56,908 bases of DNA from Acidobacteriota bacterium (GCA_021818955.1 JAKASR010000007.1:94677-151584); one strand, 5' to 3'. Positions 20,185-47,069 are shown, numbered from the stretch's first letter. Made by a program: numbers and translations. Notes: generated by a model not told the origin, from the letters alone.

Positions 20185-20185
20185 A

Positions 20186-30514: not shown

Positions 30515-30659
30515 TCTACACTGCCTCTGCCGCCGCAATCAGCGCGCGGCGGTCGAGCGGCTCGCCCAATTGATGGCTGGGGATTTGATGGCTAACGATG
30601 GCGAGTTGCCGTCCGCCGGTCCATCCTCAATTTTGCAACCCACGCGGATTCCATAAGTT
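30515..30659 (+). pseudogene. Tyrosine integrase, C-terminal tail remnant (element E0)
   Basis: About 140 bp match the last 47 codons of the intact integrase at 46875-47017 (RAAVERLAQLMAG ... SILQPTRI), with a frameshift near 30535. It sits in the same position relative to the tRNA-Gly core as the intact gene does at 47 kb. It is the surviving right end of an older, deleted element to the left. Confidence 0.82.
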
Positions 30660-30663
30660 TGGT

Positions 30664-30708
30664 TGGAGCGGGAGACGGGGATCGAACCCGCGACATCAAG
30701 CTTGGGAA
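30664..30708 (-). repeat. Attachment-site core: 3' half of tRNA-Gly(CCC)
   Basis: On the minus strand this is the 3' part of a tRNA-Gly: anticodon loop TTCCCAA, 3' anticodon stem, T-arm GCGGG-TTCGATC-CCCGT, acceptor CTCCCGC, U73 and CCA. No 5' half adjoins it. The same 45 bp recur at 47025-47069. It is the core of a tRNA-Gly integration site, here at the junction between an older element (left) and unit A (right). Confidence 0.88.
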
Positions 30709-30891
30709 TTCTGCTTTCATGAACCCTTAACCCTTGATTTGCCTTGCTTTTCCGCGCCGAATGCTATCAGAAAATGGGAAATTCCATGGGGGGTTTGATG
30801 GCAAGTTGATGGCGAGTTCGAGAGAAGGGACCGTTCAAGCAAAGCTGAAACCATACTCAGCTTTGTGCGGTTGAGGGGGAGTGGGTCAAAC
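30709..30891. repeat. Element left-end repeat J, copy A
   Basis: About 183 bp (ttctgctttcatgaaccc ... gagtgggtcaaac) recur at 38777-38956 with about 90% identity. The block starts exactly at the end of the tRNA core here, so it is the left end (attL arm) of unit A. Confidence 0.85.
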
Positions 30892-31484
30892 TTTCTCTGC
30901 TCAAGTGAAGCTATATATGATAAACATCCTCCTCTTGCGATACGCCACGAAGTGCCTGAATATTTAAATATAATTGTTCCTGAATGTGCACATGTATTAC
31001 CACAATAGAACCAATAGTTGAATGCAGCACGTCGATGATTTTTATTAAATATTATAGTACTAAAATAGATTAATGCATTATTATTTTGAAAGTTTATTGT
31101 ATGCCCGGGAGACACCACATGTATATCTATGTTCTTTGTAAACATATTGGGTGAGAATGATTTAATCGTGTTGTATTGCTTTATTTGAAATTTGAATGGT
31201 TGCAAGCATTTACTATTGCTATAGTTCAGCTGGAAATATTTAGTTTTAGAACTTAAATATAAATGCATATTCCAGTCTTTCCAAGATGCGTTCCTACGGG
31301 AGCGTTCTATGTATATAAATTTTTTGTATATTTGAATTTCATCCAGTGACAATAATTTATTGGATTGGTTATTGCCAATTTTATTTGCAGTGAAGCAACA
31401 TGTAAAAGTGATTATAATAACTTGCAAGCTTATCGCGTAAGTAATTCGCTTGGAGAAATCATAATAATATAACTTTGATTTCAT
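30717..31484 (-). CDS. Candidate immunity protein for the RHS metalloprotease toxin
   Basis: A 255-residue protein starting 19 bp after the RHS stop, with AAGGTGG before the ATG. An N-terminal hydrophobic segment (ISLQVIIITFTCCF) predicts export or a membrane anchor. The body is AT-rich and unlike any family I recognise; it has a CGNTCAHSG cysteine pair near residue 162. The last 59 residues or so are encoded by left-end repeat J, so the natural C-terminus was probably lost or replaced. Its position directly after a polymorphic toxin, and its predicted periplasmic location, fit an immunity role. That role is inference. Confidence 0.6.
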   Translation of the reverse strand: MKSKLYYYDFSKRITYAISLQVIIITFTCCFTANKIGNNQSNKLLSLDEIQIYKKFIYIERSRRNASWKDWNMHLYLSSKTKYFQLNYSNSKCLQPFKFQIKQYNTIKSFSPNMFTKNIDIHVVSPGHTINFQNNNALIYFSTIIFNKNHRRAAFNYWFYCGNTCAHSGTIIFKYSGTSWRIARGGCLSYIASLEQRKFDPLPLNRTKLSMVSALLERSLLSNSPSTCHQTPHGISHFLIAFGAEKQGKSRVKGS

Positions 31485-31503
31485 GTTTCCACCTTCTGGA
31501 TTA

Positions 31504-34500
31504 TTATGATCGTGGAACTAAAGTTGCACCATGGCTGCCGTTAATACTTGGACAATCTCCGTTGGGATCAAGGCAAGGGAAAATCGCATCTGGGTTTTCA
31601 ATTAATAACAATCCCAATGCATCAAAAAAGTCAGAGTCATTTATGCTATTGGGTGTTATATATGCTCCACCGCCGCCGGTATTATTATTTTTTTTATTAT
31701 TAGGGCATTGCCTCTTTAAAATATTAATTTGGCTTTGATTAAATTCATTGCTAGAATTTAAAGGGCCTGTTAATTGGGAATTACTTGCTTCATCGGTCAT
31801 AATTGTATTGGCAGTATGGTGGCGAATTCCAAATATATGGCCAATCTCATGTGAAGCAATTCGCCCTGATGCAACACCCAATACATTACTATTTGATGGA
31901 AGATTATAATCATTTGAAATTACACTACTAAGGACGCCACCATTTCCCGTTGGCATATATAATCCATATAATTTATAAGCTGAGGCCCAGCCTAATGTGT
32001 CGTGTCCGTTGATATAACTTGGAAAATCAGAACCAAATCTATAACCAATAAATGTTATATTTGCTGAATAAAATGAATTGCCTTGTCCATTAAAAGATAC
32101 TCCTTGCCCGGCGGCTTCAAATATTTTTTGAATTTGTGCTTCAGCTGATTTTAATTGTGCATTACTTAAAGAGTGAAAATTTGTAATATTTATATTAAAT
32201 ATACATAGTCCAAATAAGTCGTATGTACTACAGGGGTTTCCTTCAACATAAGAATACCTATTAAAGCTTTGTGGATCATTTGGGTTTATCATATCCCATC
32301 CTGCCGGATCAGGACTCATCCAGCGAGCTTTCAATGGCGAATAATTGCGGAATAAGTAACGGTAGAGTCCGGAATCCGAGTCAAATTCATGTCCCGTCCA
32401 ATTTAAACTGGTAGTGGGATCGAGCGAGGCATTCCAGGGATTGCCGAACGGGCTAAAGTGATAATTTATCGGCCCGGCAGTTGGATTGTAGCGGAAACTG
32501 AGTGTGCCGAGCAGGTTCGTGCCGGTATAGGTAAAGGCGCTATAGCCTGATGGCGGGTTCAAATCATAGGTTTCCAGCGAGGTATTCCCAATGCCCATCT
32601 CAAACCGAACCCAACTACTTGTGGTGCCATCATATACGCCGCGCAATGCGCCTCCCAAGCCATAAACATAATCTATTTTATCCGTGCCAAGGGTTTGCAC
32701 CCGCTGTCCCAATGGATTATAGTTATATGTGCTGCTGCCGTTATTCAATCCGGTCACCTGGCCCAGGGCGTTCCAGGCATATGTATTCGTCGTATCATTC
32801 AAAGTATTGCCGTCATTATCATAACTCCATCCCTGGATTTGATTGTTGTTGCTGGAATTCATGACAAAATTGAAATAATCTAAATTGCTGGCGTTGGTGA
32901 CATTTCCCCAGCGATCAATGGTGTAGGTGGTATTGGCTTGTGTATTGTTAGGCGCGGTCAGGCTGGCAATCCGGCCTAAGGCATCGTAAGCAAACGTGCG
33001 GTTATAAGTGGTATTTATATTATCGTTATTGCTTGTCAACAGGCCATCCGCGTCATAGCCGTAGCCGCGATCAAAATCCTTCGTGCCGTTGACGGTGGAC
33101 GTGATTTCGGTGGTTTCAAGATCGTCGTTATAGCCGCCATTTAAAGTTTCCGGCCCAACCGTAGCCGACGCCAAGGCTTCAAAGGGTGTGTAGGCGGCAT
33201 TTCCAAATACGGTTTCCCCGCTGTTCCAATTCGACGGGGCGGTGATATTGGTTACCCGACCGGGATTGTCAAGGGCATAGGTAAAGGTATATCCCCCGGG
33301 GTTGGTGTAATTGTTGACTTGTCCGTTGTAAAAGTAGGTGTAGGCTTGATGGGTTTGCACATCGGGAGCTTGCTGCCAAAGATCGCTCACCTCGCCGGCG
33401 GCGTTGTAGCCATAATCCGCCCAAGTGCCATTGGCGCTGTTGGCGCAAGCCAGGCGGCCAAGCAGCCCGCCTCCTGATGTAATATTGCATCCGGAATTGG
33501 AATCATAGATAAACGTCAGTTTTGGGGTCGAATCCGTAAAGGATTCGCTGGTCAGCCGATCCAGCGCATCATAATCAAAACTGGTAGTGACATTATTGGC
33601 ATCCTCGCGCGTGAGCAGGTTGCCATCGGCATCGTAGGTCATCGCCTCCGACCAGTTTGTGCCGCCGGCGGGATTGGAAGGACCAGAAAGCGTGGCCGCC
33701 GCTTCCGGGTAATAACTATAGAGCACATTCCCCAAATCATCGTAGGCCAAGGACCGCTTTTGGCCGCCGTCGTTGACCAGCGTCAGCCGGTCCAAAGCAT
33801 CATAGCTGTAGCAGGTATTGTACTCGCCGCTGGTCAGACTGCCCGAGGCAGGGTTCGGCTCATCGGCTTCAATCGTATTGCCATCGGCATCTAGCCAGGT
33901 TTCGTCATATCGTCCTGCCGCCGATATCGCTTCAATGGGGTATACCTGACTACTGCATTGGCTTGTGGTTAACCCGTTATTGCTTCCGACTTGCGTTCCG
34001 TAATAAATATGAGAAATACTGGCGTCCGGATTTGTCACCATCTTAATTCGACCTAAAGCGTCATAGCTGAATTGTGTCACGCCATAGGTGGGATCGCTGG
34101 TCGAGCGGTAGGGATTGGTGATGGAAGCAATCTCACCATCGCCATTATAGCTGGTCACCGTAAAGTCCGGCCCTGCGGGATCGTTGACAAGCTCATGCTG
34201 CGTTTCGCGTCCAGCCCAGTCGTAAGTATCTTGTTCGTGCCGCCAGCCGGTATCCGATGCCGGCAATGTATCTGCCGTGGTGCTGATGTAGCGATCAATG
34301 GTGCTGGAATTATTACCGGCATTGTCGTTATATTGAATTACCGCTTCGCTGCCGCCGGGTGCGTCAATTTGCGTCAGCCGGCTGAAAGGGTCATCATAAT
34401 GAAACGTAGTGGCTTGCCCATTGAGATTGGTTACGGCAAGGGGAAGCCCCGCATAACAATTCCAGGTCGTGGAAGTGCTCAGGGGTGAAATGGGGAATGT

Positions 34501-36303
34501 AGTCTTGGTGGGAAATGCTCCATCGCAAATTGAGCTATCGTAGGTATAAGTTGTCGTATGTCCATTCGGGGTTTGCACGGAAGCCAGCGTGCCATTGGAA
34601 TTGTAAGCAATGTTGGTTGTATCGAAACTGGAGCCGGATACCAGACGTGCGATGCTGGTAGGATCGCCCTGGCTATTGTTGGTAAAATTCGTCTGCGCGA
34701 GAATCGTTCCGCCGCTATCTTCCGCCGTGACACTGGTGGGCCGCTCGTTCACAGTCCCGTTCACGCCATAGTTGGCATAATCGATGATGGTCTTGCGCAA
34801 GACCGCGTCCAGACCGGAGCCGGTAAAAAAGGCCGTCTGATCGATTTCCGTAGGGTTGCCATAATTATCCAAGGTAGTGGTTGAAGTGGACTCCAAGCCT
34901 TCATCATCCTGGGTCGTAATATTAATTGGTGAAATACTTGAAATTGCCGATCCATTGCAAGGAAAGGCCGTGCCGCCATAGCAGGTATAAGTGGTATCAA
35001 GCGGGCTTCCCTGAACGGCTCCCTGATAGACATCGCGTTCGGTTTGATACGGACCTTCGAAATAATACTGCGTATTGTTCCCCATCGGGTCTTGAACGGT
35101 GGTGGTCCATTCCGGATCGGATACTACTGCACGCGTATAAGTCCATGTGCCATCCGGCGTGGTGCGGGTAAGAATAGGCGTGCTGCCGTCCGTGCATTCG
35201 ATGCCGTTTGTGCCTCCGCTATATGCGTAAGTTATGGATTGGCCCGTGGGCAGGGTGATGGACGCGATTCTTCCTGTCCTATCACCGCTAAAGCCGGGCG
35301 TATGCTCATAATGGAATGTATACTTCTCATTGTTAGTGGTAGTATAATTTGGAAGATGAATTTCAGAAACTAAGGGTATATATGTTGTGCCACTATTATA
35401 TTCGGTAACGCCAGTACACCCGAAATTGGTTCGAACGATATAGCTGCCATATATTACTTTGAAAGTTTCCGCATTTCCATCCGCATCCGTATACGTATAT
35501 GTCGTCGAGCCACCTGCCGTTTGATCGCCGCTTACCGTCAATGCGGTCATGCCAAGGCTATCGGTATAGACGGTTCCGGTCGTGCTAATGTTGGTCCCAT
35601 AAGCATCTACTATACTTGCGGAAGCAATTAGATTCGCCGGTATGCTTCCTTGCTGATACTGGGGATCATAAATCGTATTCCCTTTGGCATCGTAAATATT
35701 CGATGACGGGCCTTGCAATGAGGTGCCGGCGTTGGCGGTAATAGAAAAGCCTGAGTTATCATTAGCCGCCACATCATTCATGCTGGCGGGAAGCGTCCCT
35801 TTATGTCCTGCCGGGCATTCGCTATAATCAGCAATTTCACCACTAAAAGAATGCGTTGCATTGTTATTTTGCACATATTCCCAATTGCTATAGGTATTGT
35901 ACATATAGCATGATTGCAATGTATGGCTCTCGGCTCCACAACAGGATGGCGCTAATGAACATCTCGTGCCTGGACATATTCCGCCACCTAATTTATAAGT
36001 CGTATAGCCAGAAAATGCATTGGTTTGCGTATTCCAACCCCAGTTTCCCGTCGGCGTCCATGCCCCTGCAACCGGCTTCCAAATCGCGCTGTCATAAGAA
36101 ATGGAAAACGTAAAGGGCATCTGCACGCCCGGCTTGTGCAAGATGTTGAAGGTAAAATGATCGTTCAAATTCTGAAGGTTGACCACATCCGGACCGCCGG
36201 CAAAGGTGCCTAATGGATAAATGCCTGTCGCAACCTGCGCATGCAACCATGAAGTGAATAGACCGAGAAGGAAAACACTGACCATCAAGTAACGTTGACG
36301 CAT
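31504..36303 (-). CDS. Sec-exported RHS/YD-repeat protein with C-terminal metzincin-type protease domain
   Basis: The start at 36303 has GAGGGTG upstream and begins a clear signal peptide (MRQRYLMVSVFLLGLFTSWLHA). A start at 36342 would only add a non-signal extension. Length is about 1599 residues. A unique N-terminal domain with cysteines is followed, from about residue 600, by many YD repeats. The RHS core boundary is WMSPDPAGWD ... NRYSYVEGNP (about 1328-1360). The variable C-terminal domain (about 1370-1599) carries HEIGHIFGIRHH with a downstream IMTDE, i.e. the HExxHxxGxxH zinc site plus Met-turn of metzincins. It is probably a surface or secreted antibacterial toxin that acts by proteolysis. 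The immunity candidate lies 19 bp downstream. Confidence 0.88.
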   Translation of the reverse strand: MRQRYLMVSVFLLGLFTSWLHAQVATGIYPLGTFAGGPDVVNLQNLNDHFTFNILHKPGVQMPFTFSISYDSAIWKPVAGAWTPTGNWGWNTQTNAFSGYTTYKLGGGICPGTRCSLAPSCCGAESHTLQSCYMYNTYSNWEYVQNNNATHSFSGEIADYSECPAGHKGTLPASMNDVAANDNSGFSITANAGTSLQGPSSNIYDAKGNTIYDPQYQQGSIPANLIASASIVDAYGTNISTTGTVYTDSLGMTALTVSGDQTAGGSTTYTYTDADGNAETFKVIYGSYIVRTNFGCTGVTEYNSGTTYIPLVSEIHLPNYTTTNNEKYTFHYEHTPGFSGDRTGRIASITLPTGQSITYAYSGGTNGIECTDGSTPILTRTTPDGTWTYTRAVVSDPEWTTTVQDPMGNNTQYYFEGPYQTERDVYQGAVQGSPLDTTYTCYGGTAFPCNGSAISSISPINITTQDDEGLESTSTTTLDNYGNPTEIDQTAFFTGSGLDAVLRKTIIDYANYGVNGTVNERPTSVTAEDSGGTILAQTNFTNNSQGDPTSIARLVSGSSFDTTNIAYNSNGTLASVQTPNGHTTTYTYDSSICDGAFPTKTTFPISPLSTSTTWNCYAGLPLAVTNLNGQATTFHYDDPFSRLTQIDAPGGSEAVIQYNDNAGNNSSTIDRYISTTADTLPASDTGWRHEQDTYDWAGRETQHELVNDPAGPDFTVTSYNGDGEIASITNPYRSTSDPTYGVTQFSYDALGRIKMVTNPDASISHIYYGTQVGSNNGLTTSQCSSQVYPIEAISAAGRYDETWLDADGNTIEADEPNPASGSLTSGEYNTCYSYDALDRLTLVNDGGQKRSLAYDDLGNVLYSYYPEAAATLSGPSNPAGGTNWSEAMTYDADGNLLTREDANNVTTSFDYDALDRLTSESFTDSTPKLTFIYDSNSGCNITSGGGLLGRLACANSANGTWADYGYNAAGEVSDLWQQAPDVQTHQAYTYFYNGQVNNYTNPGGYTFTYALDNPGRVTNITAPSNWNSGETVFGNAAYTPFEALASATVGPETLNGGYNDDLETTEITSTVNGTKDFDRGYGYDADGLLTSNNDNINTTYNRTFAYDALGRIASLTAPNNTQANTTYTIDRWGNVTNASNLDYFNFVMNSSNNNQIQGWSYDNDGNTLNDTTNTYAWNALGQVTGLNNGSSTYNYNPLGQRVQTLGTDKIDYVYGLGGALRGVYDGTTSSWVRFEMGIGNTSLETYDLNPPSGYSAFTYTGTNLLGTLSFRYNPTAGPINYHFSPFGNPWNASLDPTTSLNWTGHEFDSDSGLYRYLFRNYSPLKARWMSPDPAGWDMINPNDPQSFNRYSYVEGNPCSTYDLFGLCIFNINITNFHSLSNAQLKSAEAQIQKIFEAAGQGVSFNGQGNSFYSANITFIGYRFGSDFPSYINGHDTLGWASAYKLYGLYMPTGNGGVLSSVISNDYNLPSNSNVLGVASGRIASHEIGHIFGIRHHTANTIMTDEASNSQLTGPLNSSNEFNQSQINILKRQCPNNKKNNNTGGGGAYITPNSINDSDFFDALGLLLIENPDAIFPCLDPNGDCPSINGSHGATLVPRS

Positions 36304-36424
36304 GTCACCCTCGCGAGTGGGAGTGATTTTATTGCCTTTCAAACGATCAAGTCAATAATTTTTTTCCATCCGTTTAACCCTTTTAAATTCATGATTTTTC
36401 GTTCATCTGTTATTCTGCCCATGA
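36304..36424. promoter_or_regulatory. Divergent promoter region between cargo and backbone, unit A
   Basis: This 121-bp gap separates the minus-strand RHS gene from the plus-strand backbone. It is nearly identical to 44202-44321 in unit B, although the cargo genes differ. TATTCT at 36411-36416 could be a -10 for the backbone, only 9 bases before its ATG, which would make that mRNA nearly leaderless. Confidence 0.5.
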
Positions 36425-37255
36425 ATGGCAAAAGCCCGTAAAAGTTCCGATCAGACGGATGCGCATGCCCATGCCGCTGAATTGGCGCATGCGCTGATGC
36501 AGTCGAGAAATTTTCTATTCCCCACGGAGGTTTCCTTTCCGCTGCATTCACTCGGCGATGTCCTTTTCATCGGCGCCATGACGGTCGCGGTGGTCGCGCA
36601 GTTCGGGACGAATTTAGGCCATAGCGAAGGAATCAGCTTAGTCCGGAGTCTACAAGAGCGATTTAAACAGGCGGCGCAAGCGGGCACACCCCTGGATGAA
36701 AAATGGTGGACGGAATATTTAGAAAATGGAATCCAGTCGGGCCAAGTTGATCCCGATGATTTACGCCAGGCTATTTTTCAAGCGCTGGCAATTTTAGAAA
36801 AACCACATCAGATGCGACGGCTTCTGGGGCAGATGATTAAACGCCAATTTCCCGTAATGCCCCCTGGCCGGCGGCATTTGATCGAACCGGAAAATTATCC
36901 CGAACTGCGCATGCAAGCGGATAAATGGCTGCCCGTGGCGCGGGCTTTAATCCCTCTTTTAGCGGAAGATGCGCAGGTAAACCCCAAAATGCGCATGTCG
37001 CAAGCCGAAAAGATGCGCATGGCCCTGGATATATTGCGCACTCGGTTCCCTCAACAATGCCAAATCTTGAAAGATTATTTGCCGCGCGTTGAATCCATTC
37101 TGCGGCATAAAGTTGTTCGGGATGCAAAGACTATTGATGGCCAAGCTCGCCGTTTGGCCGATGCGCTGGCTGGAGCAACATTCGGTTTGAGCCCCGCTTA
37201 TGCCGTCAAGCGGGTCCAGGCCGCGCGTCAAATCCACCCGCCCCAGGCCAAATGA
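36425..37255 (+). CDS. Conserved backbone protein X of unit A, unknown function
   Basis: A 276-residue soluble, basic protein with no signal or membrane segment that I would trust. One hydrophobic patch is SLGDVLFIGAMTVAVVAQF (about 43-61). It contains repeated basic helical segments, such as HQMRRLLGQMIKRQF. I do not recognise a family. A copy at 44322 differs at only about 14 residues (about 95% identity), while the adjacent cargo is entirely different. It is always next to protein Y and the integrase, so a role in element maintenance, transfer or regulation is plausible but unproven. A 12-bp hairpin follows its stop. Confidence 0.75.
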   Translation: MAKARKSSDQTDAHAHAAELAHALMQSRNFLFPTEVSFPLHSLGDVLFIGAMTVAVVAQFGTNLGHSEGISLVRSLQERFKQAAQAGTPLDEKWWTEYLENGIQSGQVDPDDLRQAIFQALAILEKPHQMRRLLGQMIKRQFPVMPPGRRHLIEPENYPELRMQADKWLPVARALIPLLAEDAQVNPKMRMSQAEKMRMALDILRTRFPQQCQILKDYLPRVESILRHKVVRDAKTIDGQARRLADALAGATFGLSPAYAVKRVQAARQIHPPQAK

Positions 37256-37265
37256 CAACTGCATA

Positions 37266-37293
37266 GTTTTATCCTTCGGTCGAAGGATAAAAC
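37266..37293 (+). terminator. 12-bp hairpin after backbone gene X
   Basis: A perfect stem gttttatccttc / gaaggataaaac encloses the tetraloop ggtc, 10 bp after the stop of X. It has no T-tract. The unit B copy (45163-45190) keeps the hairpin with one mismatched pair. It may be a partial terminator or RNA processing site before Y and the integrase. Confidence 0.5.
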
Positions 37294-37396
37294 TCGCGCG
37301 GCTGCTCAATAATACAGATTATTTTCAGAGCTTCTCCCCCGCAGACATTATTTTCCAAACTAATCATGACGATTGATCCGGTTCAAAGGAGACGTC

Positions 37397-37825
37397 ATGA
37401 GCAGCAAAAAGAATTTGTCCACTTCACCCGCCAAGGCTATGGCGAATGCCCGCTGGCAACCAGATCATGCGCAGGCTGCGCATATCAGCCAGCAGGCGCG
37501 ATTGTTGGCGTTTCGCCGCTGGGGTATTCCATCCCCTGCCGATGCGCATGCAAGTCGGGTTGTAAGCCCCCAATCAGAGCATTCATCGCATGAACTGGCC
37601 TGGCTGCCCTTGGCGGGCGGGATGCTCAGCCTGCTTTGGGGCATCGGTCATGCGCATGAACCGGTAAAACCTTCGCCGGCCACGCATCCGATTTTGGGCG
37701 ATACGGAGCGGAATGCGGGGATTCAGTCCGCATCTAGCGGCTTTTCGGGCATGGGTATTTTCGCCATGGTTGCCGGGATTGCGCTCATCCTGCTGGCGAT
37801 TCATTTATTCACTAGCCAAAGCTGA
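37397..37825 (+). CDS. Small two-helix membrane protein Y of unit A
   Basis: The ATG at 37397 has AAGGAG 5 bases upstream and gives 142 residues. The N-terminal 70 residues are hydrophilic with AKAMANARWQPDHAQAAH. Two hydrophobic helices follow: LAWLPLAGGMLSLLWGIG (about 69-86) and GIFAMVAGIALILLAIHLF (about 119-137), joined by a loop. No family is recognised. It lies between protein X and the integrase in both units, and the copies are nearly identical except for the first codons. It could be a membrane partner of X or a holin-like or mating-pore component; the sequence does not decide. Confidence 0.72.
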   Translation: MSSKKNLSTSPAKAMANARWQPDHAQAAHISQQARLLAFRRWGIPSPADAHASRVVSPQSEHSSHELAWLPLAGGMLSLLWGIGHAHEPVKPSPATHPILGDTERNAGIQSASSGFSGMGIFAMVAGIALILLAIHLFTSQS

Positions 37826-37926
37826 TCCTTGCCCCTCGAATTTTGACTCTTCCCGCCATGGCCGCTATACTCCATCTCGCGGAAAAGCAAGGCGAGTCCA
37901 GCCAGCAAGGAGGCTGGCAAAAGCAT

Positions 37927-38790
37927 ATGGCTCGCCGCCGCTATCAGCGAGGTACTGTACGCAAGCGCGGTAAACGCCAGCCTGTATGGGAGCTTCAATG
38001 GCGGGAAGATTGCATCACCCTGGAAGGCAAGATTGGCCGACGCTGGCGCAGTTGCCAGCTTGGGCCGGTCGCAGAGATGACCTATCGGCAAGCTTTGAAG
38101 CTGGCCGATGCGCATCTGAATGCGCTCAACCAGGGCCGGGTCATGCCGCAATCCACGATTACGCTCGAAAGGTTTGTGGAGCGGAACTTCATCCCCGATG
38201 CCTTGCCGGCGTTGAAAGCTTCTACGCAGAGGCTTTACCGTTCACTTTTAACCGTTCACCTTTTACCTGCTTTTGGCCATTACCGGCTTTCCGATATTAC
38301 CCACCTGGACTTGCAGCGATTCGTGCTGTTGAAGATGCGGCAAGGGCTGGGCTGGGAGCGGGCCAATCAGCTTCGCCAACTGGCTTCAAAGCTGATGGCA
38401 ACTGCCAGCAAATGGGGCTTGCTCGCGGGCGAAAATCCCGCCCGGGGAATCGAGCTGCCAGAAAAAACTTGGGTTCGTGTAAAGCATGCGCTTTCACCTC
38501 TCCAGGTCAATCAATTGCTGGCGATACTCAACGAACCCGTGCGCACGCTGGCCGAAACCGCCGTGCTAACGGGCATGCGCATCGGGGAAATTCTCGCCCT
38601 GCGCTGGCAGGATGTGGATTTCAACCTCTGCCATATGCGCATCGAGCGGGCCTACTGCCGGGGCGTAATGGGCACACCCAAGACCAAAAGCAGCCGTCGC
38701 ACCATCCCTATCCCGCCGTCGCTTTGCCAAGCCCTGATCCAGCTACGGCCAAGCGAACCGAAATCGGAAGCTTTAATTCTGCTTTCATGA
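37927..38790 (+). pseudogene. Tyrosine integrase of unit A, C-terminally truncated
   Basis: Homology to the intact unit B integrase runs from the start to codon 284 and ends in the middle of KPEALIL. The frame then reads a few codons of left-end repeat J and stops. The SAM-like N-terminal domain and the first catalytic arginine (TGMRIGEILALRW) remain. The HxxR, the second histidine and the tyrosine nucleophile are gone, so it cannot recombine DNA. The break shares aat with J, which suggests a short-homology deletion that also removed the tRNA core between units A and B. AAGGAGG lies 13 bases before the start. Confidence 0.9.
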
Positions 38791-38956
38791 ACCCTTAACC
38801 CTTGATTTGCCTTGCTTTTCCGCGCCGAATGCTATCAGAAAATGGGAAATTCCATGGGGGTTTTGATGGCAAATTGATGGCGGGTTCGAGAAAAGGGAGT
38901 GTTCAACAAAGCTGAAATCATACTCAGCCTTGTGCGTTGAGGGGGAGCAGGTCAAC
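38777..38956. repeat. Element left-end repeat J, copy B
   Basis: The second copy of the block at 30709-30891, marking the left end of unit B. Here it abuts the broken integrase instead of a tRNA core. A 30-bp scrap of the same block (ggggttttgatggcaagttg...) reappears at 40115-40145. Confidence 0.85.
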
Positions 38957-39054: not shown

Positions 39055-39972
39055 CTATTTATGATGTATCGCACTAAATGGCCATAAAATGGAACGTAAT
39101 TTTAAGTCATGGGAGATTAATAATAATCTTCTATAAATTGATGGCGATATCCATTCTGGACTTGAACTATATTTACTGAGTAAATGCTTTTTGCCATCAA
39201 TATTCCATAAATATATTCCCATGCATTGCCCATTGCTCCCATATGTGCTTGTATTTGATACATACCGAACCAATGAATCTGATTTATAAAGACAGTACCC
39301 ATCAATGCCAACATTGTCCACCAGGACACTGCCTGAATCATTCACGGATAAGTGTAAATAATTGTGGCCGTATTTTAAATTTGACAAATTATAATTAAAC
39401 AATTTTTTGGCATTGACATCGTAAATGGCTAGAGTATCGTTAAAATTATTCCACCATGATATATACTTGCCGGCAGGGCTAATGTCCAATGAAGCCGCAT
39501 GTCTTAGATTCATTATATATGGCCTGATCATTACATCGTTCTTTATCAAGACGTGCTTATTATTCGAACATAATGCGTTATAATTATAAATAATGTGACC
39601 ATCATAGTTGTATGTCCATTGATGAGGCAGCATTTTCTTGTGCCATATTAATGAACCGCAAGAAGCAATTATATAAGAAGTAATTATTTTTTTGAATTTC
39701 TTGTTCTTTAAATTAATAACAATACCTCTTGAGAGCCCATCCAGATTAACCGGCTCAAATTGGAAAGCCAAATACTTTCCATCTTGCGATATGGCATATT
39801 TATAAAATTTCATATTGCGTGTAATTTCAGTATTCGCATTATGGCAATTTGCCCATAATTGTCCATCATGCCCACTTAGATAAGTAAAGCAATGCTGCCC
39901 ATGGGCCAATTTGCATAGGGCGGGAATAGTTAAAATTACTATAAGAATGAATAATCTGACACGATGATGCAT
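39055..39972 (-). CDS. Secreted WD40/TolB-like beta-propeller protein (cargo, unit B)
   Basis: A 305-residue protein with GGGAG 7 bases before its ATG and a clear signal peptide (LFILIVILTIPALCKLAHG). The mature part has propeller-like blades: KYAISQDGKYLAFQF, LDISPAGKYISWWN and LHLSVNDSGSVLVDN. It is AT-rich, unlike host genes. It is a distant paralogue of the protein at 40053-41162, sharing a CGSL motif, 'S.DGKYL.W' blades and a matching C-terminal WIS segment. No family function is recognised. In this place it may be an orphan immunity or effector-binding protein left after loss of an RHS gene. That is inference. Confidence 0.68.
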   Translation of the reverse strand: MHHRVRLFILIVILTIPALCKLAHGQHCFTYLSGHDGQLWANCHNANTEITRNMKFYKYAISQDGKYLAFQFEPVNLDGLSRGIVINLKNKKFKKIITSYIIASCGSLIWHKKMLPHQWTYNYDGHIIYNYNALCSNNKHVLIKNDVMIRPYIMNLRHAASLDISPAGKYISWWNNFNDTLAIYDVNAKKLFNYNLSNLKYGHNYLHLSVNDSGSVLVDNVGIDGYCLYKSDSLVRYVSNTSTYGSNGQCMGIYLWNIDGKKHLLSKYSSSPEWISPSIYRRLLLISHDLKLRSILWPFSAIHHK

Positions 39973-40052: not shown

Positions 40053-41162
40053 TCAGGCATTTCCCCAGCGGTCAATGGTGTAGGTGGTATTGGCTTGCGT
40101 ATCGTTTTGGCGCGGGGGTTTTGATGGCAAGTTGATGGCAGGTTTTCTGGCCCCCTGTCGAAGAGAATTATTTTTAAGGTTTAACCAATGGATTATATTT
40201 TTCGCGGTTGATTTCGAGATCCACTGACCTCCGCCTGCCAAAGCTATATATTTGGGCTTTGAATGTATATTTTTTATATAGTATAAACCGATGAAATGAG
40301 TTTTTAAATATTTTATTATATAAGATCTGTTTTTTGCATATTGATAATTGATATTTATAAAACCTGATAATAATATTTGACCCTCGTCATTTATTGAATT
40401 CATCTCAGATAAAATAGTATCATTACATTTACTTTTATGATCTGTATATTTTACGCATATACCACGCTTAGATTGCCATATTAAATATTTGCCATCAGAT
40501 GATGTGTTGACGCTGTCCTCTTCCGCATTAGAATCTATCATTCTACCACTAGGGTATGTAATTAAGGCGCATTTTGAACATACCGCTGTGCATCCTGGCC
40601 CACAAGCAATAATAGTGTTTGGCATAACATAATAGTTATGAAGTGAACCGCAATATGTATAGCTATAAGTTCTAGCCGGCAATGGAATTTCAGGCGTGTG
40701 TAAATATCGTGATGAAATTGTATCCCAAATATAGTTGTGAATTACTTGTGATTGATGAGCTTCCAGCACTATGGTTCCACATGTTTTTATAAGATTATAC
40801 TTCCACCATGTAAAGTAATGGTTGTGATTATCTTTTAGCATGATTTCATGCCCGGTGTTAAGGTTGACGCGGATAAAATGATTATGCCGTAAATAAACAA
40901 GATAGTGATCTTTTACGGCATACTCGCCGCCAGTTATGGTATTTTTAAATCTATATGTTCTATGATTGCTATACAAATACAAGTACTTATTATAGAACAG
41001 GAAATTACCATTTACTTTAAATTTAATGTTATTAATTATCTTATTAATATTCTGCGGCAAATTAATATTCTGCGCCGATAATTGATTGATTTGAAATGAA
41101 AAAATATACAATACTAACAATATTGTTATGCGCCTAATGTCGATCTCATTTTTGGGGGTCAT
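40053..41162 (-). CDS. Secreted beta-propeller-like protein, paralogue of 39055 (cargo, unit B)
   Basis: A 369-residue frame. The N-terminus (ITILLVLYIFSFQINQLSAQ) is a signal peptide. The middle has propeller-type strands with TSSDGKYLIWQSK, and a cysteine cluster CGPGCTAVCSKC (about residue 190) that the 39055 protein lacks. The last 30 residues or so are not native: they read through a J scrap into an RHS fragment (NTTYTIDRWGN), so the original C-terminus was altered by recombination. It is AT-rich and its start lies just beyond an IS5 remnant. Function unknown; probably exported cargo. Confidence 0.62.
   Translation of the reverse strand: MTPKNEIDIRRITILLVLYIFSFQINQLSAQNINLPQNINKIINNIKFKVNGNFLFYNKYLYLYSNHRTYRFKNTITGGEYAVKDHYLVYLRHNHFIRVNLNTGHEIMLKDNHNHYFTWWKYNLIKTCGTIVLEAHQSQVIHNYIWDTISSRYLHTPEIPLPARTYSYTYCGSLHNYYVMPNTIIACGPGCTAVCSKCALITYPSGRMIDSNAEEDSVNTSSDGKYLIWQSKRGICVKYTDHKSKCNDTILSEMNSINDEGQILLSGFININYQYAKNRSYIIKYLKTHFIGLYYIKNIHSKPKYIALAGGGQWISKSTAKNIIHWLNLKNNSLRQGARKPAINLPSKPPRQNDTQANTTYTIDRWGNA
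40058..40110 (-). pseudogene. Internal fragment of an RHS gene
   Basis: About 53 bp match the unit A RHS gene at 32901-32953 in the same orientation (coding for NTTYTIDRWGN), with about four mismatches. It shows that unit B once carried an RHS gene that has been deleted. It joins directly to a scrap of repeat J. Confidence 0.82.
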
Positions 41163-41285
41163 GGATTTTCTGCGTCCTTGGAATTGATAAAATAAGGGCT
41201 CTTCCCAGCCAAGCCGCTACTTTCATGAATCGTTTCCGCGCCGGCGAGCAGCTGACCCATTTTGTCGACGATTGGGACAAATTGC

Positions 41286-41387
41286 AAGGTGCAATCGCTA
41301 ACGTCAGGTAAAAATAGAGGATGCGATAGAGCAATATTTATCATCTTCGCTATGATGTGTGGGCACCAAATCCGGGTAACGGCTTCC
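41286..41387. repeat. 102-bp direct repeat, copy 1
   Basis: Matches 43284-43385 over 102 bp (aaggtgcaatcgctaacgtc ... ggtaacggcttcc) with roughly ten mismatches. It interrupts the IS5-like transposase at its right end. Confidence 0.88.
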
Positions 41388-41656
41388 GTGTTCAGACGCC
41401 CATCGGCCTGGAGATGCTCGGCCAAGCGGCGCAACGCTTTTTGCAGCGCGCCAATTTTCACCCATTGCTGAAAACGACGATGGCAGGTCTGATAATGCGG
41501 ATACTTGGCGGGCAGATCGCGCCATTGTGCGCCGGTGCCTAATATCCACAACACGCCATTCAGCACCTGGCGCGTATCGCGGGCGGGTCGGCCTCGCCCA
41601 TCCGCCCGCCGCTTGGGGGTTAGAATCGGCGCCAATAGTTCCCATTGTGAGTCGCT
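41388..41656 (-). pseudogene. IS5-family transposase, N-terminal remnant
   Basis: On the minus strand the frame reads SDSQWELLAPILTPKR, then GRGRPARDTRQVLNGVLWIL, then GAQWRDLPAKYPHYQTCHRRFQQW, the standard N-terminal DUF4096-like domain of IS5-group transposases. A stop lies immediately before the first matching codon, and homology ends at about residue 90, where the 102-bp repeat begins. The DDE core is absent. Confidence 0.82.
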
Positions 41657-41737
41657 GACTTACCAGCATCCAGGCATCGGTTAGAGTTGCGGTTCGTCAC
41701 CAGAGACATTTCGGTCTGCTCAACATGTATCCGATTG

Positions 41738-41927: not shown

Positions 41928-41933
41928 AGTAAT

Positions 41934-42407
41934 TTATAATGCTCTAATATTTAATAATTTTATAAGTTTTTGTGCTAAAGAAAATTTCTTCTGATGCCAT
42001 GCGCCCGCTGAATAAGCAATCGACAGATACAACGGATATGTATAAACAAGATATGTAAATGAAGGTCCCAACTGGGATTTTAGAGCATATTTGAAACCAC
42101 ACCAGGAGCACTGGCCAGTTTGATAATTATCATATATAAAACCGTATATAAACCACACAACAAATAGCAACCATAGCTTATTAATATACAAATGGCCATA
42201 TTTGTAAACTATATAAACGCCTGCAATGAACCCTGAAATAATAGAAACAATTGGTATTGGTCCATCAAAAATATATTCTAAGGTTCTTGCATTTTGCTTG
42301 TAAGCTAACTCAAAGGCTGAGATGATTAAATATGTTAATAAGTATACAGAACTTGGCGCAATAATACAATAGAATAAATTAGTAATTAATTTTTTGATTA
42401 ATCTCAT
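41934..42407 (-). CDS. Multi-pass membrane protein (cargo, unit B)
   Basis: A 157-residue, AT-rich protein with about four hydrophobic helices: near residues 10-32 (LFYCIIAPSSVYLLTYLII), 50-68 (IPIVSIISGFIAGVYIVY), 76-95 (LWLLFVVWFIYGFIY) and 115-135. A CSWC pair sits between the third and fourth. No family is recognised and no good ribosome site is visible. It lies 57 bp downstream of the secreted protein at 42465-43220 on the same strand and could be its membrane partner. Confidence 0.55.
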   Translation of the reverse strand: MRLIKKLITNLFYCIIAPSSVYLLTYLIISAFELAYKQNARTLEYIFDGPIPIVSIISGFIAGVYIVYKYGHLYINKLWLLFVVWFIYGFIYDNYQTGQCSWCGFKYALKSQLGPSFTYLVYTYPLYLSIAYSAGAWHQKKFSLAQKLIKLLNIRAL

Positions 42408-42464
42408 ATTATTACTAAGCTGTTTAACCTTTCATGATATCACAATCCTGCAAATCACCACATT

Positions 42465-43220
42465 TCACGCCACCCTAAAGCCCAATTGCGGCAGATGTGT
42501 AGAGTATTCATGTCCAATCATCGGACTTTCATTGTGATCCATAATATACCACAAATTTAATGTGCCATTTTTAATAATCCGATTAAGGTAGTATTTAATT
42601 AAATATTCATATAGACTTTTGTCTTTATTTGTATATGAAAACTTGATGTTTTCAAAAGAATCATATAAATGTCCTGAATATTTTGCTATCCCACGTACAT
42701 TATACCGGCCATTATTTATTAATTTATACTCCACAATATTTTTGGTAATTGAATGAATTGATAATCCATTCAAAGATTTTATGGTATAACCTGGGTAATA
42801 CAATTTACATTCGGATAAAGCACCAGGGAAGTATGGTAAGGCCGCGCAAGCAGCATGCCTACTTGATGAATAAATTTCATATTTAATATATTTCTTACGA
42901 TTATGGATTGGATGCAAGAATACTTTATCAATACCATCAGCATAGATATGTCCGTAACCTGTCCAGTACTTTTTTGCAATCCATATGAGTATAGAAGCGC
43001 CGTATACGCCAATATCATTCTTGAAACATTCAGGAATAGTTAATGATACATAACTTGGATATTTAATATTATGCGGCCCACCTATTCCATTAATCAAAGA
43101 TAAAATTTTGACCTTAAAATTCTCAGTTACATACGAATTCTTTGATGCTTTGCCTTTGCACACTACAGTGCATAAGAACAATAAAAGTAATATTACGATT
43201 GAGCACATTTTCACAGTCAT
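42465..43220 (-). CDS. Secreted hypothetical protein, paralogue of 43416 (cargo, unit B)
   Basis: A 251-residue protein with GGGAGG 8 bases upstream and a signal peptide (CSIVILLLLFLCTVVCKG). The mature part aligns along its length with the protein at 43416-44126: 'YP.Y..L.IP' then IGVYGASILIWIAKKYWTG, a mid-region cysteine/alanine block with YFPGAL, and a C-terminal DKSLYEYLIKYYLNRI helix. The 'IGaYGa...W..P..W.G' pattern recalls DUF4850-type proteins, from memory only. It is AT-rich. Function unknown; a candidate orphan immunity protein. Confidence 0.66.
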   Translation of the reverse strand: MTVKMCSIVILLLLFLCTVVCKGKASKNSYVTENFKVKILSLINGIGGPHNIKYPSYVSLTIPECFKNDIGVYGASILIWIAKKYWTGYGHIYADGIDKVFLHPIHNRKKYIKYEIYSSSRHAACAALPYFPGALSECKLYYPGYTIKSLNGLSIHSITKNIVEYKLINNGRYNVRGIAKYSGHLYDSFENIKFSYTNKDKSLYEYLIKYYLNRIIKNGTLNLWYIMDHNESPMIGHEYSTHLPQLGFRVA

Positions 43221-43283
43221 TACAGTATCCTCCCGTGTGAGATAGCAACAATTATTATCCAGATGAATGCAGGGTGCAATTTA

Positions 43284-43385
43284 AAGGTGCAATCGCTAAC
43301 GTCAGGTAAAAATAGAGGAAGCGAAAAAGCAATGCTTATCATCTTCGCTATGATGTGTGGGCGACAAATCCGGGTAACGGCTTCC
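43284..43385. repeat. 102-bp direct repeat, copy 2
   Basis: Second copy of 41286-41387, in the same orientation, in the gap between the two paralogous secreted proteins. Similar flanks (EAVTRI.CPHIIAKM-type codons) show that IS-derived DNA was copied together with the cargo. Confidence 0.88.
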
Positions 43386-43415
43386 ATTTTAGATGTTCTT
43401 CGTAAACCACTCATA

Positions 43416-44201
43416 TCATTTTCCATGATTAATATAATAATACTGTAGAAAATGTAATAAAGTAATGTCATGCCTTTGTAAGACAAATGCGGACATCTGG
43501 AAAAAATAATAATCTCCACCTTGGTAATACGCTACACCACATGCAAGCAACCTATGATTATTATACAATCGATAACTGACTGTATGGGGATCGACATGTT
43601 GTAGATGATGCAATCCAAGTGGTACAGCAGAAGGATAAAAGCCATCAGATAATGCTTTATGTCGCGCCTTAAGAAAAAATGTTGCCGCATCTGCCTCACT
43701 ACAGCCTGCGCAACCACCATCATTTTCATATTGAATATATGGTGTGGAAATATTAGGATTATAAACAATATAATCTTTTAACTTATTTATATAAGGACCC
43801 AGCACTACAGTAGTCGAATTATCCGAACCTTGCGATGCCGTACCCGCCCACCCCTTAGGACCTAACCATATCATTCCAGCAGCACCATATGCCCCTATAT
43901 GATTAATTAAACTGATTGGAATATTTAGTTTATAATACTTTGGGTATTCTTCTTTAATTCCGTTTAAATTATATATTGTATGTATAATATGTACTCTTAA
44001 AGAAACCTCTATCAATCTTTTATCAACATTACGTTTAGTATAGGAATACAATTCGGAAGAAAAGACCGCGCTAGTTATCGTCAGGATAACTATAAAAAAC
44101 ATAAATCGAATTAATTTATATTTCACTGTACCTTTTGTGGCTTTCCATGAAGTGAATAGACCGAGAAGGAAAACACTGACCATCAAGTAACGTTGACGCA
44201 T
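43416..44201 (-). CDS. Secreted hypothetical protein fused behind the RHS signal leader (cargo, unit B)
   Basis: From 44201 the frame starts with MRQRYLMVSVFLLGLFTSW, identical to the unit A RHS leader, then switches at KATKGT to a different protein. A native GTG start at 44126 with AAAGG 4 bases upstream opens its own signal peptide (FMFFIVILTITSAVFS). The native protein is about 236 residues and homologous to 42465-43220, with IGAYGAAGMIWLGPKGWAG and a cysteine pair GGCAGCSEA (about residue 130 of the native form). The RHS promoter and leader have been captured by recombination. Which start is used is unknown. Confidence 0.68.
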   Translation of the reverse strand: MRQRYLMVSVFLLGLFTSWKATKGTVKYKLIRFMFFIVILTITSAVFSSELYSYTKRNVDKRLIEVSLRVHIIHTIYNLNGIKEEYPKYYKLNIPISLINHIGAYGAAGMIWLGPKGWAGTASQGSDNSTTVVLGPYINKLKDYIVYNPNISTPYIQYENDGGCAGCSEADAATFFLKARHKALSDGFYPSAVPLGLHHLQHVDPHTVSYRLYNNHRLLACGVAYYQGGDYYFFQMSAFVLQRHDITLLHFLQYYYINHGK

Positions 44202-44321
44202 GTCACCCGCCTGAGTGGGAGTGATTTTATTGCCTTCAAACGATCAAGTCAATAATTTTTTTCCATCCGTTTAACCCTTTTAAATTCATGAATTTTCGTT
44301 CATCTGTTATTCTGCCCATGA
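44202..44321. promoter_or_regulatory. Divergent promoter region between cargo and backbone, unit B
   Basis: Near-identical to 36304-36424. Conservation here, while cargo differs, marks it as the fixed control region of the element. The homologous block between units runs from 44145 to 46668 (36248 to 38777 in unit A). Confidence 0.5.
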
Positions 44322-45152
44322 ATGGCAAAAGCCCGTAAAAGTTCCGATCAGACGGATACGCATGCCCATGCCGCTGAATTGGCGCATGCGCTGATTCAGT
44401 CGAGAAATTTTCTATTCCCCCCGGAGGTTTCCTTTCCGCTGCATTCACTCGGCGATGTGCTTTTCATCGGCGCCATGACGGTCGCGGTGGTCGCGCAGTT
44501 CGGGACGAATTTAGGCCATAGCGAAGGAATCAGCTTAGTCCGGAGTCTACAAGCGCGATTTAAGCAGGCGGCGCAAGCGGGCACACCCCTGGATGAAAAA
44601 TGGTGGACGGAATATTTAGAAAAAGGAATCCAGTCGGGCCAAGTTGATCCCGATGATTTACGCCAGGCTATTTTTCAAGCGCTGGCAATTTTAGAAAAAC
44701 CGCATCAGATGCGACGGCTTCTGGGTCAGATGATTAAACGCCAATTTCCCGCCATGCCCCCTGGCCGGCGACATTTGATCGAGCCGGAAAATTATCCCGA
44801 ACTGCGCATGCAAGCGGAAAAATGGCTGCCCGTGGCGCGGACTTTAATCTCCCTTTTGGCGGAGGATGCGCAGGCGAACCCCAAAATGCGCATGTCGCAA
44901 GCCGAAAAGATGCGCCTGGCCCTGGATATATTGCGTACTCGCTTTCCTAAAGAATGCCAAATCTTGAAAGATTATTTGCCGCGCGTTGAATCCATTCTGC
45001 GGCATAAAGTTGTTCGGGATGCCAAGACCATTGATGGCCAAGCCCGCCGTTTGGCCGATGCGCTCGCTGGAGCAACATTCGGTTTGAGCCCCGCTTATGC
45101 CATCAAGCGGGTCCAGGCCGCGCGTCAAATCCACCCGCCCCAGGCCAAATGA
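44322..45152 (+). CDS. Conserved backbone protein X of unit B, unknown function
   Basis: A 276-residue copy of the protein at 36425, with about 14 substitutions spread evenly and no frameshift, which suggests both copies have been under selection for a coding role. Substitutions are mostly mild (Met to Ile, Asp to Glu, Val to Ala). It has the same start context and the same downstream hairpin (45163-45190). No recognised domain. Confidence 0.75.
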   Translation: MAKARKSSDQTDTHAHAAELAHALIQSRNFLFPPEVSFPLHSLGDVLFIGAMTVAVVAQFGTNLGHSEGISLVRSLQARFKQAAQAGTPLDEKWWTEYLEKGIQSGQVDPDDLRQAIFQALAILEKPHQMRRLLGQMIKRQFPAMPPGRRHLIEPENYPELRMQAEKWLPVARTLISLLAEDAQANPKMRMSQAEKMRLALDILRTRFPKECQILKDYLPRVESILRHKVVRDAKTIDGQARRLADALAGATFGLSPAYAIKRVQAARQIHPPQAK

Positions 45153-45293
45153 CAACTGTATAGTATTATCCTTCGGTCGAAGGATAAAACCCGCGCGGCT
45201 GCTCAATAAAACAGATTATTTTCAGAGCTTCTCCCCCGCAGTCTTTATTTTCCAAACTAATCATGACGATTGATCCGGTTCAATGGAGACGTC

Positions 45294-45716
45294 ATGAACA
45301 ACAACATATCCACTTCACCCGCCAAGGCTATGGCGAATGCCCGCTGGCAACCAGAACATGCGCAGGCTGCGCATATCAGCCAGCAAGCACGCCTATTGGC
45401 GTTTCGCCGCTGGGGTATTCCATCCCCTGCCGATGCGCATGCAAGTCAGGTTGTAAGCCCCCAATCAGAGCATTCATCGCATGAACTGGCCTGGCTGCCC
45501 TTGGCGGGCGGGATGCTCAGCCTGCTTTGGGGCATCGGTCATGCGCATGAACCGGTACAATCTTCGCCGGCCACGCATCCGATTTTGGGCGATACGGAGC
45601 GGAATGCGGGGATTCAGTCCGCATCGAGCGGCTTTTCGGGCATGGGTATTTTCGCCATGGTTGCCGGGATTGCGCTCATCCTGCTGGCGATTCATTTATT
45701 CACTAGCCAAAGCTGA
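45294..45716 (+). CDS. Small two-helix membrane protein Y of unit B
   Basis: A 140-residue copy of the protein at 37397. The first codons differ (MNNNIS instead of MSSKKNLS) and two codons are missing there; after that the copies are nearly identical. The ribosome site is weakened (tggag instead of aaggag). Two hydrophobic helices are kept. It ends about 100 bp before the integrase start. Confidence 0.72.
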   Translation: MNNNISTSPAKAMANARWQPEHAQAAHISQQARLLAFRRWGIPSPADAHASQVVSPQSEHSSHELAWLPLAGGMLSLLWGIGHAHEPVQSSPATHPILGDTERNAGIQSASSGFSGMGIFAMVAGIALILLAIHLFTSQS

Positions 45717-45817
45717 TCCTTGCCCCTCGAATTTTGACTCTGTTCGCCATGGCCGCTATACTCCATCTCGCGGAAAAGCAAGGCGAGTCCAGCCAGCAAG
45801 GAGGCTGGCAAAAGCAT

Positions 45818-47017
45818 ATGGCTCGCCGCCGCTATCAGCGAGGTACTGTACGCAAGCGCGGTAAACGCCAGCCTGTATGGGAGCTTCAATGGCGGGAAGA
45901 TTGCATCACCCTGGAAGGCAAGATTGGCCGACGCTGGCGCAGTTGCCAGCTTGGGCCGGTCGCAGAGATGACCTATCGGCAAGCTTTGAAGCTGGCCGAT
46001 GCGCATCTGAATGCGCTCAACCAGGGCCGGGTCATGCCGCAATCCACGATTACGCTCGAAAGGTTTGTGGAGCGGAACTTCATCCCCGATGCCTTGCCGG
46101 CGTTGAAAGCTTCTACGCAGAGGCTTTACCGTTCACTTTTAACCGTTCACCTTTTACCTGCTTTTGGCCATTACCGGCTTTCCGATATTACCCACCTGGA
46201 CTTGCAGCGATTCGTGCTGTTGAAGATGCGGCAAGGGCTGGGCTGGGAGCGGGCCAATCAGCTTCGCCAACTGGCTTCAAAGCTGATGGCAACTGCCAGC
46301 AAATGGGGCTTGCTCGCGGGCGAAAATCCCGCCCGGGGAATCGAGCTGCCAGAGAAAACTTGGGTTCGTGTAAAGCATGCGCTTTCACTCATCCAGGTCA
46401 ATCAATTGTTGGCGATCCTCAACGAACCCGTGCGCACGCTGGCCGAAACCGCCGTGCTAACGGGCATGCGCATCGGGGAAATTCTCGCCCTGCGCTGGCA
46501 GGATGTGGATTTCAACCTCCGCCATATGCGCATCGAGCGGGCCTACTGCCGGGGCGTAATGGGCACACCCAAAACCAAAAGCAGCCGTCGCACCATCCCT
46601 ATCCCGCCGTCGCTTTGCCAAGCCCTGATCCAGCTACGGCCAAGCGAACCGAAACCGGAAGCTTTAATCTTCCATACCGCTTCGGGCACACCTTTAAGCG
46701 ATTCGAACCTACTGGCAAGGTATCTGAAGCCAGCCGGACGAAAGCTAGGCATGCCCTGGCTCAACTTCCACACCTTCCGCCGCACGCATGCCACGCTGCT
46801 GCAAGCGGCGGGCGCATCGCCCAAGGACGCGCAAGCGCAACTCGGGCATGCGCAGCTTTCGACTACATTCGACCTCTACACACTGCCGCTGCCGGCGCAT
46901 CAGCGCGCTGCGGTCGAGCGGCTCGCCCAATTGATGGCTGGGGAATTGATGGCAAACGATGGCGAGTTGCCGCCCGCCGGTTCATCTTCAATTTTGCAAC
47001 CCACGCGGATTCAATAA
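45818..47017 (+). CDS. int: Tyrosine integrase of unit B, intact
   Basis: A 399-residue phage-type tyrosine recombinase. The N-terminus is a basic arm-binding region (ARRRYQRGTVRKRGK), followed by a SAM-like core-binding domain (about 75-165) with TLERFVERNFIPD and LQRFVLLKMRQGLG. The catalytic domain carries TGMRIGEILALRW (Arg), HTFRRTHATLL (HxxR), LGHAQLSTT and the FDLYT tyrosine, so the site is complete. The frame is open upstream to 45734, but ATG 45818 with AAGGAGG 13 bases before it is the likely start. It stops 7 bp before the tRNA-Gly core, the normal place for an integrase beside its attachment site. Confidence 0.95.
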   Translation: MARRRYQRGTVRKRGKRQPVWELQWREDCITLEGKIGRRWRSCQLGPVAEMTYRQALKLADAHLNALNQGRVMPQSTITLERFVERNFIPDALPALKASTQRLYRSLLTVHLLPAFGHYRLSDITHLDLQRFVLLKMRQGLGWERANQLRQLASKLMATASKWGLLAGENPARGIELPEKTWVRVKHALSLIQVNQLLAILNEPVRTLAETAVLTGMRIGEILALRWQDVDFNLRHMRIERAYCRGVMGTPKTKSSRRTIPIPPSLCQALIQLRPSEPKPEALIFHTASGTPLSDSNLLARYLKPAGRKLGMPWLNFHTFRRTHATLLQAAGASPKDAQAQLGHAQLSTTFDLYTLPLPAHQRAAVERLAQLMAGELMANDGELPPAGSSSILQPTRIQ

Positions 47018-47024
47018 GTTTGGT

Positions 47025-47069
47025 TGGAGCGGGAGACGGGGATCGAACCCGCGACATCAAGCTTGGGAA
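47025..47069 (-). repeat. Attachment-site core: 3' half of tRNA-Gly(CCC), second copy
   Basis: Identical to 30664-30708. It closes the right end of unit B. To its right the sequence is not the tRNA 5' half but the start of the prophage region, so another element probably occupies the same site. The gap 47070-47245 holds GC-rich small hairpins and nothing else I can name. Confidence 0.88.

Follow-up and report, generated by a model that had tools for sequence, protein, structure and literature searches.

The window analysed here is a 56,908-nt stretch of the genome of an Acidobacteriota bacterium (GCA_021818955.1, JAKASR010000007.1:94677-151584; genome G000, contig C46), the right end of which is the end of the contig. 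Between positions 30515 and 47069, it contains a set of tRNA-derived repeats, integrase genes and rhs sequences that we read as the probable remains of a tandem array of tRNA-targeted integrative elements. Two identical 50-bp core sequences, candidate att sites, lie on the minus strand (core0, 30659-30708; core2, 47020-47069), each corresponding to the 3′ half of a tRNA-Gly(CCC) gene from the anticodon loop to its end plus 5 bp; the same sequence occurs in the intact tRNA-Gly(CCC) gene of contig C24 (65870-65919). Searching with up to 3 mismatches returned 2 core matches in the window vs 0 in 100 shuffles. Left element ends (J1, 30709-30890; J2, 38777-38955; both plus strand, 93 % identical) carry arm repeats at 30795-30813 and 38863-38881, respectively. 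An integrase-side arm repeat is present at 46931-46953 (plus strand), while the remaining 3′ end of an integrase gene that is otherwise lost (int0, 30515-30658, plus strand; 91 % identity to the tail of int2 over 221 bp) carries another at 30570-30592. A preliminary description of this DNA, made by a model from the sequence alone, had placed the core at 30664 and 47025, the J repeat at 30709 and 38777 and an integrase tail plus core at 30515-30708, all of which we recovered; it had overlooked a third left-end arm (40121-40139) within a J relic (J3, 40114-40144, plus strand) inside what had been called element 2, which is the mark of a third or further unit. Each of these arms consists of a doubled repeat, TTGATGGC-N3/7-TTGATGGC, and all five occurrences in the window (0 in 100 shuffles) are at unit ends, namely ahead of both cores, inside J1 and J2 and at the 40121 relic beside an Rhs remnant; these repeats are likely integrase arm sites.

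Two copies of a backbone carrying genes X, Y and a tyrosine integrase (36247-38776 and 44145-46667) share 97 % identity over 2530 bp, in agreement with the 2.5-kb homologous backbone described previously. All of its genes are on the plus strand. X (X1, 36425-37255, 276 aa; X2, 44322-45152; 95 % identity) is a family-less all-helical protein and Y (Y1, 37373-37825; its homologue Y2, 45270-45716; 94 % identity) is a small protein with a hydrophobic segment at its C-terminus. Neither X nor Y returned a confident match in Pfam, PHROG or PADLOC, and X was absent from IMG/VR and the phage records searched. A structure model of X built from 6 sequences (predicted local distance difference test score, pLDDT, 71) was all helical and had no match below E=2 in a Foldseek search against PDB. 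Substitution counts for the two window copies point to purifying selection (dN/dS about 0.23 for X and 0.28 for Y). The second integrase, int2 (45818-47017), is complete and has the tyrosine-integrase catalytic set of R, H-x-x-R, H and Y (TGMR 215, HTFR 318, LGH 342, Tyr 354), with matches to Pfam Phage_integrase (3.7e-24) and PHROG integrase (3e-67); in phage and plasmid records, its only matches were below 60 % identity and uninformative. The first, int1 (37927-38790), is truncated: it stops at 38790, and the HxxR, LGH and catalytic Tyr motifs seen in int2 are missing from it. A 609-bp stretch identical between int1 and int2 (37854-38462 on the int1 side), inside backbones that are otherwise 96-97 % identical, points to gene conversion.

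Because int1 is truncated, the two elements proposed in the preliminary description are not independent; rather, the region is a single 16,361-bp (16.4-kb) composite bounded by the two cores, with int2 as its sole complete integrase. The end of int1 is informative in this respect, as its junction with J, AAGCTTTAA|TTCTGC, mimics the core-J junction AAGCTTGGGAA|TTCTGC, suggesting that a core-like sequence inside int1 recombined with a missing core1 and that the end of int1 was lost as a result. This would be the simplest route to the loss of its catalytic end and would have fused the units.

The cargo differs between the two units, as previously noted, and is AT-rich (G+C 0.35-0.48 vs 0.54-0.55 for the backbone and 0.62 for host DNA); the only stretch in common is a 58-bp Rhs fragment. 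In the first unit, the minus strand encodes a full-length Rhs protein of 1612 aa (31504-36342) with a probable signal peptide, RHS repeats (Pfam RHS_repeat, 6e-26), a conserved pre-tip region and a variable C-terminal tip, the architecture of a polymorphic toxin. The tip contains a metzincin motif, HEIGHIFGIRHH (residues 1498-1509), a pattern that occurs once in 59,117 six-frame residues, and the three weak Pfam matches at this stretch are all to metalloproteases (Peptidase_M10, Reprolysin and M54). A PDB search returned a weak hit to karilysin (E=0.24), and AlphaFold modelling of the isolated tip was unusable (mean pLDDT 29.6). These data are suggestive, but not proof, of a metzincin-type metalloprotease. 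Directly 3′ of rhs is a 255 aa, AT-rich protein with a hydrophobic N-terminus (30717-31484, minus strand), a candidate immunity protein, which had no match in Pfam or PADLOC; searching X, Y, Rhs and the cargo against PADLOC likewise gave no match.

The second cargo, also on the minus strand, holds no Rhs of toxin length, only an Rhs signal-peptide start and a relic of an rhs gene (40058-40106; 94 % identity to 32901-32949). Its other genes encode a secreted AT-rich protein of 305 aa that is immunity-like cargo without a family match (39055-39972), a secreted AT-rich protein of 369 aa whose 3′ end overlaps the J and Rhs relics (40053-41162), an IS4/5-type transposase fragment (41159-41635; Pfam DUF4096, 1.6e-21), a secreted DUF4850-like protein (42465-43220; Pfam DUF4850, 0.02) and a DUF4850 protein (43416-44201; Pfam, 3.6e-8) fused behind the rhs signal-peptide start MRQRYLMVSVFLLGLFTSW that it has in common with the gene at 36342. 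A 113-bp repeat is also present (41280-41392 and 43278-43390, 90 % alike), both copies of which encode protein sequence of the end of the IS4/5-type transposase fragment.

Pattern searches located X at 10 loci, all in three Acidobacteria metagenome-assembled genomes (MAGs) of a sister genus; a more distant copy is present in a different family (G067). Wherever the sister-genus contigs extend far enough, X, Y and int are kept together, bearing out the previous description of the three as neighbours, and they do so at other tRNAs. At L035, they adjoin tRNA-Arg(CCT). L036 (G010:C13) runs from a 45-bp tRNA-Val(GAC) half (2042-2086) through the C-terminal part of an Rhs protein (Rhs-CT), X, Y and int to the intact tRNA (7008-7084), and L042 (G002:C54) consists of an Rhs-CT with an Ntox33 tip followed by a DUF4279 gene, X, a frame-disrupted Y, int and an intact tRNA-Val(GAC). 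The Ntox33 tip and DUF4279 gene are consistent with a toxin and its neutralizing partner. Integrase and tRNA identity appear paired, with int2 at Gly, 54 %-identical integrases at Val and a 32 %-identical integrase at Arg. Further afield, in another family of the same order, integrases 53-58 % identical to int2 are located at tRNA-Val genes. In one of these (L038, G067:C3, about 6173-17502), an intact tRNA-Val and an exact 45-bp half lie 11.3 kb from each other, and between them are int (56 % identity to int2), a Rep_1 replication protein, the distant X, a type III restriction-modification system and an SMC-like ATPase; a 5.8-kb int element of G080 also lies between an exact 45-bp tRNA-Val half and the intact tRNA. 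A half-core at one end and an intact tRNA at the other are thus found for the family in L036, L038 and L089. These intact tRNAs abutting integrases, along with the catalytic motifs of int2, support the earlier proposal of tyrosine-integrase elements targeting tRNA genes. The distant X in the company of restriction-modification cargo suggests that X is probably part of the vehicle rather than of the toxin, and it also shows that the cargo is not confined to toxins, as had been thought. The claim of polymorphic toxin and immunity cargo holds in part: Rhs in the first unit of the window and Ntox33 with DUF4279 in a relative support it, whereas the second cargo consists of relics and has no toxin.

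The sister genus also contains arrays of cassettes that lack an integrase. When the tRNA-Val core and J were used as queries, G002 alone accounted for 18 matches. In one row (L123, G002:C27; cores at 3083, 5406 and 7354), each cassette comprises J, a small open reading frame (ORF) and an Rhs-CT ORF, the last two antisense to the int orientation of the core; X, Y and an intact int all went undetected. On G010:C185, the distance between two cores is 2.07 kb. G002:C7 carries three cores, at 3810, at 6186 and, in diverged form, at 15364, and the intervals hold orphan Rhs-CTs and one full-length rhs. As in known orphan Rhs-CT arrays, truncated Rhs-CT genes are lined up in L123, L126, L132 and L135, and the small gene that comes after each of them is, by its position, a putative immunity gene. 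Consecutive cassettes of about 2 kb bounded by tRNA-Val half-cores are an instance of the tandem stacking that had been proposed; however, they also mean that the cargo slot is not the only part that changes, as whole units lose X, Y and int and persist in this form. An antisense Rhs-CT was found within 3.2 kb of 13/16 core + J sites. Across 17 tips, which fall into 13 tip groups, median identity was 69 % for the 55 pre-tip residues vs 21 % for the last 100 residues. The L123 boundary at 5406 keeps int-tail-like sequence left of the core, suggesting that some cassettes are probably internal deletions of complete units.

Taken together, the repeats, gene content, tandem cores, tip polymorphism and intact tRNAs abutting integrases in the relatives lead us to interpret the window, with a probability of roughly 0.7, as a tandem array, now decayed, of integrative elements that target tRNA genes and carry Rhs toxin/immunity modules. 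With the relatives included, we read the arrays as att-delimited sets of Rhs-CT/immunity modules assembled by a tyrosine integrase. The order of a unit would be core, J arm, cargo (usually antisense to the integrase), X, Y, integrase, integrase-side arm and core, the core being the tRNA 3′ half that begins at the anticodon loop. We infer that the integrase would recombine the core of a circular form with the tRNA gene or with a core already in place, so that the tRNA is made whole again while a half-core stays in the chromosome, and that repeated integration would stack the units. Units without X, Y and int would persist as Rhs-CT/immunity cassettes between cores, movable only in trans, probably by an intact integrase. 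The encoded proteins would act as toxins and immunity proteins, and the orphan Rhs-CTs could serve as a stock for re-tipping full-length rhs through homologous recombination, for which the conservation of the pre-tip region makes homology available, as shown in Salmonella (PMC3967940).

Several observations weigh against this interpretation. X is rare, the 10 loci from the pattern search being confined to 3 MAGs; 3/16 core + J sites are without a detectable Rhs-CT; and, besides Ntox33 and a possible NlpC/P60 (full-length Rhs, L039), the tips returned no confident family match. The putative immunity genes are assigned by position, and the sister-genus data come from draft MAGs, in which contigs break off inside these repeats. 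The array is also away from the intact tRNA-Gly, which requires us to suppose a rearrangement, the loss of a tRNA copy or a break in the assembly.

A possible, if somewhat unlikely, alternative is that these are ordinary tandem tRNA genomic islands in which Rhs is incidental and the cassettes without an integrase are decayed islands that are not mobilized in trans. Tandem islands at tRNA genes are well documented (Islander: 125 tandems of at least two among 3,919 islands; PMC4383910), related integrases carry other cargo and the int-tail-like sequence at L123:5406 suggests deletion derivatives. However, Islander includes only 4 tandems of at least three, and calls an array only if every member has its own integrase (PMC4383910), while in our case the core, J, Rhs-CT and small ORF, but not int, are retained in at least three successive cassettes similar in size. 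With an antisense Rhs-CT at most core + J sites, such regular toxin-sized modules would be unexpected from decay alone. An origin of the arrays in homologous recombination and duplication involving rhs genes, which has been proposed for orphan Rhs/CdiA modules, with the tRNA halves hitch-hiking, appears improbable: the pre-tip regions are conserved enough for such exchange, which has been demonstrated for Salmonella rhs (PMC3967940), and the 609-bp identical stretch of the two int genes speaks for gene conversion, but unit limits fall at the tRNA half-core and J arm, and neighbouring units are little alike beyond Rhs and their ends, as seen for the two window cargos. Simple duplication as the origin of the window units was rejected, given that the cargos are unrelated.

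Stacking of the units at one tRNA had been proposed; however, no tRNA-Gly gene was found in the window, the units of which end in two half-cores with an intact tRNA at neither, and we rejected a placement at the intact tRNA-Gly(CCC) gene as this is on contig C24 in this assembly. There, it is abutted by a different, 36-37 %-identical integrase, with no second core on the contig. This C24 locus (L004, G000:C24:61437-65949) additionally encodes a putative excisionase-like helix-turn-helix protein and a ParB-like protein, with glgC directly beyond. In other genomes, tRNA-Gly(CCC) is present without a detectable integrase of the int2 kind (G003, G004 and G005), in line with the expected empty site, while the G006 copy has an adjoining integrase fragment. 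Immediately right of core2 and up to the contig end (47070-56908, plus strand), PHROG matches identified phage-type genes, including a replication initiator (47845) and the small (50127) and large (51319) terminase subunits, which likely represent a prophage on the same tRNA; they were rejected as part of the Rhs element and are a core-sharing neighbour. Searches with the ParB-like protein and TerL gave no viral contigs linking this phage to C24. The host genes of the left flank were rejected as a conserved marker of the insertion site, being absent or merely distant in relatives.

One tentative explanation, compatible with a tRNA-targeted Rhs array, is that a chromosomal rearrangement split a single tRNA-Gly locus (tRNA, int3 region, phage, core2, units, core0) in two. 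The intact tRNA and int3 are on C24, where a second core is missing, the cores are on C46, which lacks the tRNA, the orientations are compatible and separation of partial and full tRNA copies by rearrangements has been documented (PMC9897764). Against this, C24 is unbroken to glgC, 4.7 kb from the tRNA, the right end of the phage is hidden by the C46 contig end and the uncut order was seen in no relative. Elsewhere on C24 (about 16041-35845), a row of ORFs that by eye is type III CRISPR-Cas-like precedes a CRISPR array whose repeat translates as LQGYPDEEGIKT. A tandem palindrome-like repeat in the window (29198-29306; CAATTTCGAAGAAATTGCC) has similar sequences near the C24 tRNA and perhaps belongs to a repeat family dispersed in this genome.

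The probably mobile units described here occur in rows in Acidobacteria of one family, and most contain an exchangeable toxin tip and a likely immunity gene; they suggest a concrete mechanism by which bacteria may collect toxin modules. As the modules have precise, integrase-compatible, tRNA-derived ends and an intact integrase is present in their family, the assembly step is testable. Related integrase vehicles carry toxins in one family and restriction-modification genes in another.

A trio of conserved genes, one of them encoding a tyrosine recombinase, reportedly defines Gamma-Mobile-Trio (GMT) islands. In the description of Mahata 2024 given by PMC12039261, they resemble our elements in being mobile armouries of antibacterial toxins and defence genes; they are set apart by their other hosts and their type VI secretion system toxins, and X and Y match none of the families searched. 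Arrays of orphan Rhs-CT/RhsI and CdiA-CT/CdiI modules next to rhs and cdi genes are also long known (Poole 2011, PMC3150448; Koskiniemi 2014, PMC3967940) and likewise consist of displaced toxin C-termini and small genes in rows, with conserved pre-tip sequence that permits re-tipping. The mechanisms by which such modules are exchanged were stated to be unknown (PMC3150448), and the word ‘integrase’ is absent from the main texts of both papers; the Acidobacteria modules, in contrast, are bounded by a tRNA half-core and an element arm and are tied to a tyrosine integrase. Islander tRNA islands (PMC4383910) share with ours the tyrosine integrase by an intact tRNA, the displaced 3′ fragment starting from the anticodon and tandem stacking, whereas the Acidobacteria cassettes are mostly without int, about 2 kb long and mostly contain one antisense Rhs-CT and a small gene. 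Islands at tRNA genes, tandem islands and orphan Rhs-CT arrays are each known separately; no paper that brings them together was found in the open literature searched, outside which most subscription journals lie.

Integrons offer a further parallel, having rows of small exchangeable cassettes with site-specific ends and an integrase elsewhere in the array. We tentatively suggest that the tRNA-targeting integrase, together with X and Y, may form a toxin-cassette platform that, both in cis and in trans, assembles and reshuffles rows of Rhs-CT/immunity cassettes lacking int, with tRNA halves as the att sites. It would provide the resident full-length rhs with orphan tips and act in effect as an integron for polymorphic toxins. 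Neither attC sites nor an IntI integrase define the Acidobacteria arrays: their att sites are tRNA halves, their integrase, whose best match is the phage integrase PHROG 1, is of a self-moving phage type inside one unit and their cassettes are antisense to it.

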